DNA from: Tissierellales bacterium
GTDB lineage: Bacteria; Bacillota; Clostridia; Tissierellales; VENL01
Assembly: GCA_028280805.1 (NCBI GenBank)
Contig: JANQLB010000118.1
Coordinates: 1 to 64,000 of the forward strand
Length of the DNA stretch: 64,000 nucleotides
Direction of reading: 5' to 3'
The notes beneath the pieces are model-generated. The model did not search any database. It worked only from the letters and a program-made list of their open reading frames with translations, and was not told the origin of the DNA. Both the position numbers and the translations under genes were made by a program. This document shows positions 12,295 to 45,491 of the stretch, in pieces. Position 1 is the stretch's first letter; every line of letters starts with the position of its first letter.

Positions 12295-12789
12295 TTAAAT
12301 CACCTCAAAAATATAACTAATCATAAGTTTATTAGATTTAGTGAGCTTAGATAATAATTATTAAAGCTCTAGTAATATCATTTCTATAAAAGATTTGTTT
12401 TTCCTCTTAGACTTATATTGATTATAACCTAAAATCCATGAAGAAATTTGTTTGTTTGAGCGTAGTGAGTTAAAAATTTTAGGGTTTTATATTTTTGTGA
12501 ATTTAAGGAGTTATTTAAGAAGAAAAATGTATCAAGTCTTTGATTGATTCTATATCCGTCATTAAGACTATTACTCTATTCAATGATGATTTTAGTTGAA
12601 TAGCAATTCTTATATCTAATCATAAAACTATTGTGAAGTTTTTTAAAGTTTTTCATAAAAATACTTACTCACTAAAAAAAGCTGTTTCTAAAATTAAAAA
12701 AGCAGAAGAGTCTAATTCTATGAAAATCCATACTTTTCACCACTCTTCTGCTATCTGAAAGATTTAAATTTTTAGGTTTTTGTACTAAA
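12295..12789. other. Gene-free interval with repeat copy and inverted repeat
   Basis: AT-rich sequence between addB and a broken gene. It contains one copy of a roughly 63-base repeat shared with the hydG 3' end (12375-12437) and an 11-bp inverted repeat, AGCAGAAGAGT (12701-12711) with ACTCTTCTGCT (12742-12752), which may be a terminator-like stem. No protein frame with homology was seen. Confidence 0.5.
12375..12437 (-). repeat. Copy of the hydG 3'-end repeat
   Basis: Matches 13727-13789 over the same length. The two ends are nearly identical (TATCATTTCTATAAAAGATTT at one end, ATTATAACCTAAAATC at the other) and the middle is diverged. In the other copy the right end is the last codons and stop of hydG, so this may be a relic of a duplicated hydG tail. 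The sequence beyond it is not hydG. Confidence 0.6.
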
Positions 12790-13057
12790 TCATATTATTA
12801 CTTCTTTTAACCATTCTTTTTCTTGTGTTTTAAGGGTTTTATATAATGCTTTTATTGTTTCAACATTTTTTAATAAATTTCTTAATCCATAAGCTTCATC
12901 ATTTATTATCCTTAATAGCATTTTCAATATCTTTTAAACTAAAATCATTACCTGTTTTTTGAACATGTGTCATAATTGTCTTAAATCCATCATTGCTTTC
13001 TAACTCGGTTTAAGAAGTAACGACATCATTTTCCTTACAACTCTCTGATTTTGAAAG
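12790..13057 (-). pseudogene. Broken small gene (stop plus frameshift)
   Basis: Minus-strand translation gives a protein-like sequence interrupted twice. The first part reads SESCKENDVVTS then a TAA, then TELESNDGFKTIMTHVQ and FSLKDIENAIKDNK. A one-base shift then continues INDEAYGLRNLLKNVETI and KTQEKEWLKEVII to a stop at 12790. Composition and codon use look like a former gene of about 90 residues. I do not recognise the family. Confidence 0.5.
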
Positions 13058-13066
13058 AATCAATCA

Positions 13067-13594
13067 TTATTCATTAGTCTTCAATATAAGTGTAGAAAAT
13101 GCAAATGAAGAATTGTTTACCTGACATCTAATTAATAGACAATGTACTAAATTTCCTTCAATAGTAAACTCAGAATATTTTTCTATATCTTTGCTCGTTT
13201 CAAACATAAATTCTGCACTTTTATTTTCTGCTAAGCCAATTTTAAAGGGTTCTACATTATAATTAGAGATAATATTGCATTTCTTATCTATGATATAATC
13301 ATAGATTTCAAATTCATCTGTTTCAAAGTTTAAAGCTTCTATTAGAATTTTATCTTCAAAATCAATCGTTGGTAAATCAGTAAACCTTTTACCTATCATA
13401 AAGTCTCTTAATCTTTCTTCAATTTCATTTTTATCTTTATTATGCCGATCACCATAATAAATTGGTTTTAAAACACCAGATTCATATGATATTTTGATTG
13501 TTGGCTCTTCTATACCACTTCCACAAGAACATAAAAATATAGTAACTAACATTAAGATACTCATGATAGCTAATCTTGTAAACTTTTTTAACAT
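13067..13594 (-). CDS. Putative lipoprotein, unknown function
   Basis: A 175-residue predicted lipoprotein: a basic N-terminus (MLKKFTR), a hydrophobic core, and the lipobox LCSCG. The mature part is a charged, soluble domain with no motif I recognise. ATG at 13594 is preferred because GAGGTG lies six bases before it; the in-frame GTG at 13603 overlaps that site. It sits alone between a pseudogene and a structured palindromic element. Confidence 0.65.
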   Translation of the reverse strand: MLKKFTRLAIMSILMLVTIFLCSCGSGIEEPTIKISYESGVLKPIYYGDRHNKDKNEIEERLRDFMIGKRFTDLPTIDFEDKILIEALNFETDEFEIYDYIIDKKCNIISNYNVEPFKIGLAENKSAEFMFETSKDIEKYSEFTIEGNLVHCLLIRCQVNNSSFAFSTLILKTNE

Positions 13595-13629
13595 ATTCAA
13601 CACCTCATCTAGTTCAATTATTGTTTTCT

Positions 13630-13715: not shown

Positions 13716-13726
13716 GTCTATATATA

Positions 13727-13789
13727 TTATCATTTCTATAAAAGATTTATCTTTCCTTTCGCTTTAGCATTAATTATAACCTAAAATCT
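13727..13789 (-). repeat. Repeat overlapping the hydG 3' end
   Basis: Second copy of the 63-base repeat also found at 12375-12437. It includes the final codons (DFRL) and stop of hydG and about 47 bases downstream. The outer 15-20 bases are almost unchanged between copies and the middle is diverged. Confidence 0.6.
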
Positions 13790-15189
13790 CTTTCTCCATT
13801 ATTCATTTTTTCAAGATATTCTCTAGTAATTTTTCTAGCAGCTTCACTAGGTATAGTGTTTATATATTCTTCTATCATTTTTGTACCTATTTCTCTTAAT
13901 TCTTCGTCACCATAATCTAATAAGAATTCATTGAAGGTCAAAAGTGCATTTGGCAGACAGACATTATGAATATTACCACTCTTGGCTAAATCCATAAACC
14001 TCTCACCAGTCCGTCCTTCACGATAACAGGCTGTGCAGTAGCTTGGAATATAACCCTGCCTACAGAGGTTTTTTAGTACTTCCAGCGGTGAACGATGATC
14101 TTCTACCTCAAATTGCGGTTTTTCCTTATGCTCATCTCCAATATATTCTTCATAATACCCACCTACACCTGTACAAGAACCGGCACTAATCTGCGATATA
14201 CCTAGTGCTAAAACCTCATCTCTATACTCTGGATTTTCTCTCGTTGATAATATCATTCCTGCATACGGAACTGCAAGTCTCAGCACTGCAACTATTTTTT
14301 TAAAATTTTCATCAGAAACTAAATATGGAAACCTCTCAATATCCACTCCTTCAGCAGCCCTCATTCTTGGAACAGATATAGTATGAGGACCTACTCCGTA
14401 GACCTTATCAAGATGTTCAGCGTGCATTAGCATGGCAATAGTTTCATAGATATGGTCATAAAGACCATAAAGCACCCCAATTCCTACATCATCTATGCCT
14501 GCCTTAAAAGCTCTGTCCATAGCAGTGGTATGCCAGTCATAGTAATGTTTTGGTCCTCTGGGATGAATTTTTTCATATGTCGGTTTATGATAAGATTCCT
14601 GAAACAAAATATATGTTCCTATATCAGCATCTTTAAGCTTTTTATAGTTTTCTACAGTAGTTGCTGCAATATTAACATTTATTCTTCTAATACTTCCGTT
14701 ATTTGATTTTACGGAATATATAGTTCTAATACAGTCTAATATATATTCTATTGAGCAGTTATTTGGGTCTTCTCCTGCTTCTAAAGCTAATCTCTTATGT
14801 CCAAGAGATTCTAAAACTTTTACTTCTTCTTCTAACTGACTCATTGTAAGTTTTCTTCTTAACATATCTTTATTGGAATGTTTATAGCCACAGTATTCAC
14901 AATCATTTACACAATAGTTACTAACATATAAAGGAGCAAACATAACTATTCTTTTTCCATATATCGTTTCTTTTATATACCTTGCTGTATTAAACATTTC
15001 TTGTAATATAGATTTGTCATCTATATTTAATAAAACTGCTGCCTCCCTATGAGTTAACCCTTTCCAATTTTTAGCCTTATTGATAATATTCCTCACGTAT
15101 TCTTTATCTTTAGCCTTCCTTTTTCCAAAGTCCATTGAATCAATTATCTCAGAATGTACTATAAAATCTTCCGCTTTATACTCTAACAT
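13774..15189 (-). CDS. hydG: [FeFe]-hydrogenase maturase HydG
   Basis: A radical-SAM tyrosine lyase of about 471 residues that makes the Fe(CO)2CN synthon of the hydrogenase H-cluster from tyrosine. The N-terminal SAM cluster motif is CVNDCEYC (CX3CX2C). The C-terminal dangler-iron cluster motif is present as CTAC followed 22 residues later by Cys (CX2CX22C), which separates HydG from ThiH. Start taken as the second ATG at 15189, seven bases from AAAGGGG; an ATG at 15195 is also possible. It follows the TM1266-type gene by a few bases in one operon. HydE and HydF are not in this window. Confidence 0.96.
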   Translation of the reverse strand: MLEYKAEDFIVHSEIIDSMDFGKRKAKDKEYVRNIINKAKNWKGLTHREAAVLLNIDDKSILQEMFNTARYIKETIYGKRIVMFAPLYVSNYCVNDCEYCGYKHSNKDMLRRKLTMSQLEEEVKVLESLGHKRLALEAGEDPNNCSIEYILDCIRTIYSVKSNNGSIRRINVNIAATTVENYKKLKDADIGTYILFQESYHKPTYEKIHPRGPKHYYDWHTTAMDRAFKAGIDDVGIGVLYGLYDHIYETIAMLMHAEHLDKVYGVGPHTISVPRMRAAEGVDIERFPYLVSDENFKKIVAVLRLAVPYAGMILSTRENPEYRDEVLALGISQISAGSCTGVGGYYEEYIGDEHKEKPQFEVEDHRSPLEVLKNLCRQGYIPSYCTACYREGRTGERFMDLAKSGNIHNVCLPNALLTFNEFLLDYGDEELREIGTKMIEEYINTIPSEAARKITREYLEKMNNGERDFRL

Positions 15190-15201
15190 ATCCATACCCC
15201 T

Positions 15202-23573: not shown

Positions 23574-24614
23574 TTATTCTACAATTATTGAGTATTCTTG
23601 TTTTTTAAGTACCTTTCCTATTACACTAAACTCAGTAGGACTTTCCTTTAGTTCTTCGAGCAGCTTATCCAGTTTATGCTGTGAAACTGATATTAACAGA
23701 CCTCCAGAGGTTTGAGGATCGAAAAGAATATCTATTACCTCTTGAGATATTTGTTCATTAAACTTCACCTTTTCTCCTATAAACTGCATATTTGAATATG
23801 CTCCGGCAGGTACTAATCCCATTGCGGCAAATTCTGCTGCTTTTTTAATTATAGGTATTTTACTGCTTTCAAACATTATGGTAACATCACTTCCATTAGC
23901 CATCTCTAAGCTATGTCCTAATAACCCGAATCCTGTTATATCAGTACAACTGTTTACTCCAACTTTAACCATAGCATCTTTAGCAAATTTATTAAGAGTC
24001 CTCATATTATTAACAGCTAGATTGTAAATTTCATCATCAGCCATTTGAGCTTTAATCGCCGTATTTATAATACCTATTCCTAAAGGCTTAGTAAGAACAA
24101 GAAAATCTCCATGTTTTGCATTACAATTAGTCAAAACCTTATCAGGATGTATAAAACCACTTACCGATAATCCATACTTTGGTTCATCATCTTCAACAGT
24201 GTGACCGCCTACCAGTAAAGCACCTGCTTCATTAATTTTATCATATCCACCTCTAAGTATTTCTGCCATTACATCAGGAGATAAACAGGTGGGAAAGCAC
24301 ACAATATTCATTGCAAGTTTTGGTTCTCCACCCATAGCGTATATATCACTCAAAGAATTAGCTGCTGCTATCTGCCCAAATATATAAGGATCATCTACTA
24401 CAGGAGTAAAAAAGTCTACAGTTTGTATCAATGCTGTAGTTTCATTAATCTTATATACCGCAGCATCATCAGAAGTATCTATTCCCACAATAAGTTTCTC
24501 ATCATAAGTCTTTGGTAAATGGCACAGAACCTGTGCCAAGGTCTCAGGACCTATTTTAGCCGCTCAGCCGGAGCTTTTTGTCAATTCAGTCAATCTTTTT
24601 TCTTTCTCGGACAT
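23574..24614 (-). CDS. selD: Selenophosphate synthase SelD, a selenoprotein (UGA = Sec17)
   Basis: Makes selenophosphate from selenide and ATP. A plain reading starts at an internal Met at 24539 and gives 321 residues lacking the catalytic N-terminus. Reading upstream through an in-frame TGA (24564-24566) restores it: ATG at 24614, with GAGAGGGG before it, encodes MSEKEKRLTELTKSSG, then Sec at codon 17, then AAKIGPETLAQVL. Sec/Cys at this place, followed by a Lys, is the family active site. Later landmarks are GIDTSDDAAVYK, TVDFFTPVVDDP and DITGFGLLGH. A SECIS-like hairpin follows the UGA. Total 346 residues, a normal SelD length. Heads selD-selA-selB. Confidence 0.93.
24520..24566 (-). promoter_or_regulatory. 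Sec codon and bacterial SECIS-like hairpin in selD
   Basis: The UGA is at 24566-24564. Twenty-five bases later a strong hairpin forms: TGGCACAG (24538-24531), loop GTT, CTGTGCCA (24527-24520). A smaller GGTCCTGAGACC stem lies between. Bacterial SECIS elements are hairpins at this distance inside the coding sequence, with a G/U in a small apical loop, which fits. Confidence 0.75.
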
Positions 24615-24635
24615 CTTACAACCCCTCTCATTTTA

Positions 24636-24692
24636 CCGATAATTTTATTATTAGGACTTTTTGTATTTGTTAAACTTAAAAGATTCAAGAAA
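24636..24692 (+). pseudogene. Orphan copy of the dacF 3' end
   Basis: Plus-strand sequence that encodes IILLLGLFVFVKLKRFKKIR, matching the C-terminal anchor of the intact dacF (IILLLGLFVFVRLKRFKKIR, near 27376-27434). The nucleotide differences are mostly synonymous (TTG/TTA, TTG/CTT, TTT/TTC) plus one Arg/Lys change. No other part of dacF is present. It lies between the start of selD and the end of the VOC gene. Confidence 0.75.
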
Positions 24693-24707
24693 ATCAGAAT
24701 TTTAATT

Positions 24708-25112
24708 CTATCTACTAACCTTTTTAGCAAATGCTACAATATGACCATCCGGATCAAAGCCATACGATACATAATCTCCCCACGACCTAATAGCAGCTTT
24801 ACTTATTCCTATACCTCCGGCTTTCTCCAGCTTATTGTAATAATTATCAGGACTATCGACAAATAAATATATTTCGCTTCTTGGTATTCCATTGGCATTT
24901 TGAGGGTGAGGTATACTGCCTTCAAGTACTCTTACAATTCCTTCCTCTGGCATAATACCTAATGTAGCATTACCAGCAAGCTTAAACTCAGTCATTCCCG
25001 GAACATCTAATAAAGGTTCAATCTCTAATAGTTCTTTATAAAAACACTTAGATCTTTCTTGATTTTTAACATATATTATGAACATTACATTGCTATCTTT
25101 AGAAATACTCAT
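24708..25112 (-). CDS. VOC-family (glyoxalase/bleomycin-resistance) protein
   Basis: A 134-residue vicinal-oxygen-chelate protein built of two beta-alpha-beta-beta-beta repeats. VMFIIYVKNQERSKCFYKEL is cut here for length but is the typical opening, and YVSYGFDPDGHIVAFAK is the closing DPDGH signature. Members bind a divalent metal and act as lyases, dioxygenases or drug-binding proteins; no specific substrate can be given. Start at 25112 (MSISKDSN), nine bases after GGAGAG. It sits between two copies of the selD 5' end and beside the dacF fragment, so it probably arrived with them. Confidence 0.8.
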   Translation of the reverse strand: MSISKDSNVMFIIYVKNQERSKCFYKELLEIEPLLDVPGMTEFKLAGNATLGIMPEEGIVRVLEGSIPHPQNANGIPRSEIYLFVDSPDNYYNKLEKAGGIGISKAAIRSWGDYVSYGFDPDGHIVAFAKKVSR

Positions 25113-25182
25113 ATCTTTAAACACTCTCCATTTAATTCGTATTATTCCATAACAGACAAAGGGACAGGAATTTGACTTTTTT

Positions 25183-25247
25183 AACTGCTCAACCCGAACT
25201 TTTTGTTAATTCGGTCAATCTTTTTTCTTTCTCAGACATCTTACAAC
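25183..25247 (-). pseudogene. Truncated second selD 5' end, including the UGA codon
   Basis: Minus strand: ATG, then codons for MSEKEKRLTELTKSSG, a TGA and AVK, after which homology ends. The encoded 16 residues are identical to intact SelD, yet the DNA differs at third positions (Ser, Thr, Leu, Ser, Ser, Gly, Ala codons all changed). It keeps the upstream ribosome-binding region (GAGAGGAGTTGTAAG) just after the comEA stop. The SECIS hairpin is absent. It looks like the original resident selD start left behind by recombination. Confidence 0.85.
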
Positions 25248-25252
25248 TCCTC

Positions 25253-25924
25253 TCATTCTATAGTTATTAGATCCTTTATTGATTCATATTTTTTAATACC
25301 TATGCCTTTAACATTTTTTATTTCATCAATATTACTAAATTGATCTTTTGTTCTGTAGTCAATAATTCTATCAGCTATAACTTCTCCAATTCCCGGAAGC
25401 TTCGTAAGAATTTCTCTGGATGCTTTGTTAATATTTATTTTTCCATTATCGGAAAAACCTCCATTCTCATCTGAATTATCAGGAAAAACATATATCTGAC
25501 TATCTTCTAATTCTTCTCCAATTTCAGGAATATATATCCAAGCTTCATCTGTTAATCTTTTCGCTAAGTTAATTCTTTCTAAATCTGCTGAACCTTCTAT
25601 ATGACCTCCGGCAAGTTCTATACCATCTTGTAATATAGAACTTTTTGGAAGCTTAACAACTCCCGGTTTATGAACTTGTCCGCAAATATGAACATTAATA
25701 ATTTGATCTTCCATATCTTCTATTACATCATCATCTTTTTTTTTATCAGTATCACTTTCATAGTTTTCCGATGTTGTTTTTAAACCTATCTCTACATTCC
25801 CTTTTGCATCCTTACTTAAAATAGTTATATCTTCACTGGTAAGAAAACTATATCCCATAACACATAGTATAACTATAACCAATAATAGTATAACTATTTG
25901 CTCTTTCTTTGTAAAGAAACTCAT
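25253..25924 (-). CDS. ComEA-like membrane-anchored DNA-binding protein
   Basis: A 223-residue protein with an N-terminal membrane anchor (about residues 10-27), a SLBB domain (INVHICGQVHKPGVVKLP around 85-105) and a C-terminal double helix-hairpin-helix (NINKASREILTKLPGIGEVI then IKNVKGIGIKKYESI). ComEA is the DNA receptor for transformation; in clostridia the same architecture is common even where competence is unproven. The second Met (25924) is chosen, with GGGGGTAAATTTA before it. It ends five bases before the relic selD start, so it was probably once directly upstream of selD. Confidence 0.88.
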   Translation of the reverse strand: MSFFTKKEQIVILLLVIVILCVMGYSFLTSEDITILSKDAKGNVEIGLKTTSENYESDTDKKKDDDVIEDMEDQIINVHICGQVHKPGVVKLPKSSILQDGIELAGGHIEGSADLERINLAKRLTDEAWIYIPEIGEELEDSQIYVFPDNSDENGGFSDNGKININKASREILTKLPGIGEVIADRIIDYRTKDQFSNIDEIKNVKGIGIKKYESIKDLITIE

Positions 25925-26142
25925 TAAATTTACCCCCATTTAAATTATTTACTCGATTTGTGCAATTATTAAACCCTGTTATTTAAGCTTAAATATATTT
26001 AAATTTTATTTAATTTTAATATGAATTTTTCACAACTAAAGTTATTTATCTACCACATTCTACTAACTTTCGTTATTTCCTTTTTTTTAGAAAAATAATT
26101 TATTTACCATAATATAGACTTAAAATATAGTTAAAAGTTTGG

Positions 26143-26180: not shown

Positions 26181-27458
26181 TTGAAAAGATTTATTGCAAT
26201 AATTACAGTAATAATTTTTATAATTAATGCTTCAATCATATCCTTTGCCGATAAACCTGAAATACTTTCTGAAGCAGCTTTAGTAATGGATGCGGAAACC
26301 GGTGAAGTACTGTACGAGAAAAATATGGACAAGACTTTATATCCTGCCAGTACAACAAAGATTTTAACAGCAATTTTAGCTATTGAAAATAGCAGCTTAA
26401 ATGATAAAGTTGTAATTGACCGTGAGGCAACCTTAGGTATTGACGGAAGTCATATTGCTTTAGAACCCGATGAAGTTATAAGTATGTATGATTTACTCAA
26501 TGCTTTACTTATCGAATCTGCTAATGATGCGGGCAAAGCTATAGCTATCCATATTTCAGGTTCTGTTGAAGAGTTTACAAAATTAATGAATGAAAAAGCT
26601 AAGGAGCTGGGAGCGGAAAATTCAAATTTTGTTAACCCACATGGTCTTCCTGACGATGAACATGTTACTACTGCTTATGATTTAGCAGTTATAGCACAAT
26701 ATGCAATGAAAAATGAAGTCTTTAAAGATATAGTTATCAATTATCTTTATACAATAGACCCTACTAATAAGAAATCTGAATCAAGATATTTAAAATCCAG
26801 TAACAAATTGTTATACAGCAGTCAAGAAATATACGTTAATAATGAATATGTGCCAATGAAATATTTTGGAGCTATAGGAGTTAAGACCGGATATACGATG
26901 AAAGCCCAAAATTGTTTAGTTTCAGCTTCAACAAGAAATAATCAGACTTTAATAGCTGTTGTTTTAAAAGCTAATGGAAGAAATGTATATGTTGATACTC
27001 ATAATTTGTTTAACTATGCTTTTGAAAACTATGAATTAAAAAGCCTGGGACATGAAAATGAATATATTGGAAATATTAATGTAGAAGAAGGAGATCAGCC
27101 TTTCGTAGCTGCTGTAGTTGAAAATGAAATTAAAAAAGTACTTCCAAAAGATAGTCAAAGAAATATTACCAAAGAAATAAATGTTCCTCAAAACATTCAA
27201 CCACCTATTAAAGAAGGACAAGTGTTAGGTAATATTGATTATAACTTTGAAGGAGAAAAGATTGGAACAGCTAATATAATTTCAACTATGACAGTTAATA
27301 AAAAGCCGCTGCCTCTTTATTTAGATATAAACAGTGATTCTTTTATCCTTAGAAAGTGGTGGTCATGGTCGATAATTTTATTATTGGGATTGTTTGTATT
27401 TGTTAGACTTAAAAGATTTAAGAAAATCAGAAGAAAAAGAAGTTCTATGTTTTCTTAA
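26181..27458 (+). CDS. dacF: D-alanyl-D-alanine carboxypeptidase (DacF-like PBP)
   Basis: A 425-residue low-molecular-weight penicillin-binding protein trimming the terminal D-Ala of peptidoglycan stem peptides. A signal peptide (residues 1-23) precedes the catalytic domain, with SxxK in PASTTKILTA, SxN in ESANDAGKAI and KTG in GVKTGYTMKA. A PBP5-type beta domain follows and a C-terminal hydrophobic anchor (IILLLGLFVFV) ends in basic residues. TTG start with AAGGAAGGTGA. Sporulation PBPs of this type occur in spore formers. One of only two real plus-strand genes; its 3' end also exists as a relic at 24636-24692. Confidence 0.93.
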   Translation: MKRFIAIITVIIFIINASIISFADKPEILSEAALVMDAETGEVLYEKNMDKTLYPASTTKILTAILAIENSSLNDKVVIDREATLGIDGSHIALEPDEVISMYDLLNALLIESANDAGKAIAIHISGSVEEFTKLMNEKAKELGAENSNFVNPHGLPDDEHVTTAYDLAVIAQYAMKNEVFKDIVINYLYTIDPTNKKSESRYLKSSNKLLYSSQEIYVNNEYVPMKYFGAIGVKTGYTMKAQNCLVSASTRNNQTLIAVVLKANGRNVYVDTHNLFNYAFENYELKSLGHENEYIGNINVEEGDQPFVAAVVENEIKKVLPKDSQRNITKEINVPQNIQPPIKEGQVLGNIDYNFEGEKIGTANIISTMTVNKKPLPLYLDINSDSFILRKWWSWSIILLLGLFVFVRLKRFKKIRRKRSSMFS

Positions 27459-32630: not shown

Positions 32631-32661
32631 ATAAAAAACCTACCAAATCTGGTAGGTTTTT
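32631..32661 (-). terminator. Terminator after rpmA
   Basis: AACCTACCA (minus strand) pairs with TGGTAGGTT around loop GATT, followed by a T run. It separates the rplU-prp-rpmA transcript from the Spo0B-like gene; the flanking A/T tracts are usable in both directions. Confidence 0.8.
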
Positions 32662-32677
32662 TTACTTAAAATTATTA

Positions 32678-39669: not shown

Positions 39670-39728
39670 ACCTTATCACCTTCTTAAAGTTTACTATATA
39701 ATTATTTTGTCATTTGATTTTTTATTAC

Positions 39729-39772
39729 AAAAAAAACTATTTTAATCTAAGTTGCTTAGATTAAAATAGTGC
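39729..39772 (-). terminator. Strong bidirectional terminator
   Basis: CTATTTTAATCTAAGCAACTTAGATTAAAATAG forms a 14-bp stem flanked by A and T runs. It separates the polyprenyl synthase gene from the spoIVFA-like gene. Confidence 0.85.
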
Positions 39773-39794
39773 TTTTTTGTTTTTACTATAAAAA

Positions 39795-42794: not shown

Positions 42795-42848
42795 AAGAGG
42801 ACGCTTCAAATGTTATCTTTTTCTAGATTACATTTGAAGCGTCCTCTT
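42795..42848 (-). repeat. Long perfect stem-loop (19-bp arms)
   Basis: AAGAGGACGCTTCAAATGT (42795-42813) and its exact reverse complement (42830-42848) with a 16-base loop. Located just after the FMN-binding lipoprotein stop. No U tract follows on the minus strand. Same design as 41881-41940 but unrelated in sequence. Confidence 0.7.
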
Positions 42849-45403: not shown

Positions 45404-45446
45404 AAAAATCGAGTAGATTAACTTACCTTAGCAATAAAAAATAAAA

Positions 45447-45491
45447 GTCCTATTAAAAGCTAGTAGTTTTAATAGAACTTTTATTTTTTTA
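45447..45491 (+). terminator. Bidirectional terminator after ndh2
   Basis: AAAAGTCCTATTAAAA pairs with TTTTAATAGAACTTTT, flanked by A and T tracts, between the convergent ndh2 and mgsA genes. Confidence 0.8.

Follow-up and report, generated by a model that had tools for sequence, protein, structure and literature searches.

Two diverged gene fragments and a VOC gene at the comEA-selD junction of a Tissierellales bacterium: a probable scar of cross-lineage recombination

Layout of the comEA-selD insert

The window, meaning the whole stretch of 64,000 nt that was analyzed (GCA_028280805.1, JANQLB010000118.1, positions 1–64,000, forward strand), carries on its minus strand a series of genes in which comEA (25253–25939) is followed by selD (23574–24614), selA and selB. 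The dacF gene (26181–27458, plus strand) lies beyond comEA on the opposite strand. A 625-base insert separates comEA and selD. It holds one gene that reads as acquired and two broken leftovers of the neighboring genes. From left to right, the order is selD (copy A), the last two codons of a comEA (copy A), a piece of dacF (copy A), the VOC gene, the start of a second selD (copy B), comEA (copy B) and dacF (copy B). Every fragment keeps its native order and native orientation, and the arrangement is that of a tandem merodiploid minus one redundant block. The resident comEA is intact and encodes HHH and SLBB domains (TIGR01259, E 9e-25, below the curated cut-off). The resident dacF, also intact, encodes a D-Ala-D-Ala carboxypeptidase (Peptidase_S11, E 2e-54; PBP5_C).

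Copy A of selD is intact (TIGR00476, E 3e-120) and has both an in-frame UGA at the catalytic site and a SECIS-like hairpin just downstream, as a selenoprotein gene should. Its true start is the ATG at 24614. The listed ORF begins late, at 24539, because codon 17 is TGA (Sec). When this TGA is read as selenocysteine, SelD has 346 residues and begins MSEKEKRLTELTKSSGU... The UGA and the hairpin together span 24516–24566 (minus strand). The hairpin, GGCACAG-GUU-CUGUGCC, lies about 33 nt past the TGA and folds better than shuffled sequences (z -2.9). It is kept in relatives, with a compensatory change from CACAG/CTGTG to CACAA/TTGTG, and the selD of most relatives also has one internal TGA. Mechanical gene calling therefore yields a truncated selD here, with the true start upstream of the in-frame Sec codon.

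The leader of copy A (24615–24636, minus strand) contains the ribosome-binding site that selD has retained and, directly upstream, GTAAAATGA, which reads V-K-stop. The resident comEA ends I-E-stop, and in several relatives comEA ends with TVK, IVK, IVN or TVE before the stop. Since V-K-stop is unlike the resident end, another comEA appears to have preceded the intact selD at one time; taken alone, two codons say little.

Next to this leader lies the dacF piece (24637–24699, plus strand), which matches 27370–27432 of the resident gene with 92% identity over 63 nt (E 1e-18). The initial annotation had placed a copy of the dacF 3′ end before the intact selD. That copy is real, but it is truncated at both ends and, lacking the final 8–9 dacF codons, stops short of the true 3′ end. 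The VOC gene (24708–25124, minus strand; probable ATG at 25112) is intact and is the only ORF of the insert. Between its start and the relic selD there is a filler (25125–25175) for which the rest of the genome offers no clear match. Derivation of the filler, ACAAAGGGACAGG, from a REP or insertion sequence was considered and rejected: it has one exact copy in the genome and no clear similar stretch.

A truncated second selD start after comEA had also been reported, and this was confirmed. Its limits are refined to 25176–25260, which matches 24551–24635 with 87% identity over 85 nt (E 2e-22). This segment holds the comEA stop, spacer, ribosome-binding site, ATG (25239) and 17–18 codons including the Sec TGA. 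The spacer and ribosome-binding site (25240–25252, minus strand) directly follow the comEA stop and represent the ancestral comEA-selD junction. The coding part (25176–25239, minus strand) runs from the ATG to just past the TGA and ends before the position of the hairpin. Because the SECIS-like hairpin is missing, decoding as a selenoprotein is not expected, and the relic most likely amounts to a dead stub of 16 codons. It should not be mistaken for a second selD; no second full selD or comEA was found across the genome.

Across 464 kb of the genome, no close-spaced diverged direct repeats are stronger than the selD and dacF pairs, which excludes chance. No other such scar was found in 400 kb sampled outside the window, where the only repeats were inside or between paralogous genes. 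A dacF-like match on contig C23 sits in an unrelated region. Rfam gave no credible match. Neither a recombinase gene nor dispersed element ends were found in the insert, and its filler has no dispersed copies. No terminator-like signal was found within the insert and selD has its own ribosome-binding site, so comEA-VOC-selD-selA-selB, now a same-strand series, is probably still co-transcribed as one expression unit.

Relatives, flanking genes and the VOC gene

In all 20 relatives examined, including the two members of the same family (G001 and G002), comEA and selD are about 14–31 nt apart with no insert. The unbroken junction that the initial annotation proposed to look for is thus universal among these relatives, and the comEA-VOC-selD arrangement is derived rather than ancestral. 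Maximum-likelihood trees of selA, selB, comEA, dacF, the response regulator and obg group the window with G001 and G002; those of selD, rsfS and nadD were poorly resolved. Separate trees of selD, selA, selB, comEA, dacF and the flanks revealed no discordance between the two sides. Where resolved, the flank trees make both sides look native at family level.

The VOC protein matches Pfam Glyoxalase_2 (PF12681) with 34.4 bits against a curated cutoff of 30.1 (E 2e-8). It was absent from 60 genomes of the order, and among 391 genomes of the class there were only three matches at 50–58% identity. The best matches are from Clostridium rhizosphaerae (68%), C. manihotivorum (65%) and Anaerosolibacter carboniphilus (63%), and in these three species the gene occupies three unrelated neighborhoods. 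A search of plasmids and viral contigs did not find it. A 31-nt VOC-like match in G001 falls within an unrelated gene and was attributed to chance. From its distribution, the VOC gene is best read as foreign to the order and horizontally acquired. With no counterpart in the 60 order genomes and the closest kin in Clostridium and Anaerosolibacter, it may differ in source from the DNA of the related lineage that the initial annotation had taken to bring it. The protein has only distant solved relatives and is probably a small binding or detoxifying VOC protein.

Divergence of the two copies and origin of the insert

The two copies differ by 8–13%. In selD codons 1–18, all seven differences are synonymous, and one nonsynonymous difference falls at codon 19. 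The first 16 codons encode identical amino acids in both copies, the start codon is kept and the ribosome-binding region is nearly identical. The dacF pieces differ by four synonymous and two nonsynonymous substitutions, one of them a conservative R/K change and one at the edge. The initial annotation had stated that the copies differ almost only at synonymous sites and encode the same peptide. This holds for 11 of the 14 substitutions and for the peptide of selD codons 1–18, but not for codon 19 or for the two dacF changes.

If the relics had decayed freely after duplication within the genome while the intact genes stayed constrained, 40–46% of the changes would be expected to be synonymous. 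The observed proportion departs from this with p of about 0.004–0.014, which rises to 0.04 under the most generous assumption tried. The fragments are short and the test therefore rests on 14 changes. The duplicate ends look to have diverged under protein-level selection, though the sites are few. The synonymous bias is support for recombination between related lineages, not proof of it. It fits such recombination better than decay after duplication, in agreement with the earlier proposal that the copies diverged as working genes and were then recombined.

We consider it probable that the comEA-selD junction carries the scar of a cross-lineage recombination, in which DNA of a close relative was integrated and a redundant block was then lost. 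The donor would be a close, unsampled relative of the same genus or family, about 10% diverged here and with the same gene order, whose DNA joined the resident chromosome, probably through homology on one side and through illegitimate joining on the other. The result would be a partial diploid with selD(A)-comEA(A)-dacF(A), the foreign VOC gene at or near the joint, and a truncated selD(B)-comEA(B)-dacF(B). Being redundant, comEA(A) may then have been deleted except for two codons, together with all but 63 nt of dacF(A). We infer this order of events and its route, which could be transformation with homology-facilitated illegitimate recombination. The initial annotation had taken selD to be the part replaced by DNA from a related lineage. 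Related-lineage recombination fits, but the data are symmetric: the part that came in may just as well be the comEA-dacF side, and replacement of selD is one of two equal options.

The recombination scar requires a deletion and no fewer than two illegitimate joints, and the agreement of the trees on both sides speaks against it too. Also against it, copies A and B are closer to each other than to the sampled relatives, as an old duplication would give and as the initial annotation had listed against its own reading: A and B differ at 7 of 54 positions and A and G001 at 9, with at least 9 of 54 for any sampled relative, and the closest comparison genomes, at family level with no congener among them, are too distant for this to be decisive. 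The same closeness favors a tandem duplication within the genome, running from the selD 5′ end through comEA to dacF, with the VOC gene inserted at the joint and one comEA-dacF copy deleted. The copies would then have diverged in place, without DNA from a related lineage. This explanation, which predicts the order and orientation of all fragments exactly, is a possible but rather unlikely one. Under it the selD stub would decay neutrally, contrary to the synonymous excess described above, and a tandem duplication that persists long enough to reach about 10% divergence would be unstable.

A chimeric contig that joins two co-occurring related strains is improbable. The assembly is fragmented, with 137 contigs and 89.5% completeness, and the two copies do look like two strains. 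However, there is no long exact overlap at the joints to confuse an assembler, the VOC gene is intact, contamination is 0.4%, and a further copy of selD or comEA is not present.

The unchanged start codon and 16 codons of the stub, with their nearly identical ribosome-binding region, could also suggest a short upstream reading frame that stops at the Sec UGA, controls the expression of VOC-selD and has its peptide kept by selection. This is very unlikely, as the SECIS-like hairpin is absent, the stub occurs in 0 of the 20 relatives, and the dacF relic, lacking its own start codon, shows the same synonymous bias, which such a frame does not explain. Less credible still is its more specific form, in which the ribosome-binding site, ATG, 16 codons and UGA without SECIS would sense selenium through termination or readthrough at the Sec codon and so tune the new VOC-selD unit.

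The proposed cross-lineage scar resembles several described processes. Transformation by DNA with as much as about 15% divergence has been discussed for Bacillus subtilis, as has homology-facilitated illegitimate recombination (PMC6382021). In the latter process, in transformable bacteria, diverged homologous DNA anchors the integration, and illegitimate joining elsewhere produces mosaic insertions next to duplicated gene ends (PMC6382021). The comEA-selD case differs in that a secondary deletion must be assumed. A merodiploid trimmed after acquisition of a foreign gene would likewise give an intact gene, a fragment, the foreign gene, a fragment and intact genes, all in native orientation; the divergence between the copies here, however, is above the level of a recent duplication. 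Insertion of a transposon or integron cassette also leaves one foreign gene between direct repeats. In contrast, this insert has no transposase or integrase gene, its filler is not dispersed, and its repeats are pieces of neighboring genes, much longer than target-site duplications. A scar of this type is an ordinary kind of genome evolution. The locus would offer a readable snapshot of the entry of a foreign gene into an old operon, in which fragments of the neighboring genes record two versions of the junction.

Other repeats and scars

The window also contains a weaker close-spaced repeat pair, located at hydG (12373–12436 and 13725–13788). At this HydG/ThiH-like gene (13774–15195), the 3′ end and the downstream region are duplicated with 85% identity around an insert of about 1.3 kb, forming a second, similar scar. 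The insert holds a lipoprotein-like ORF (13067–13603) and dispersed repeats, one at 12430–12515 with seven further copies at 80–92% and one at 12794–13006 that recurs with 94% identity on a different contig.

Between comEA and dacF, 25939–26013 is a short dispersed, partly palindromic, MITE-like repeat with 84–94% copies on contigs C95, C50, C75 and C79 of this genome. Long near-perfect intergenic palindromes are located at 42795–42848, 45436–45489, 39727–39780 and 32633–32662. The one at 42795 (GAGGACGCTTCAAATGT) is without the T-run seen in the other three and so may not be a plain terminator. In the relative G002, direct repeats of 171 nt (75% identity; L156, 10425–10593 and 13875–14045) flank a 3.3 kb ORF, possibly a cassette-like insertion.
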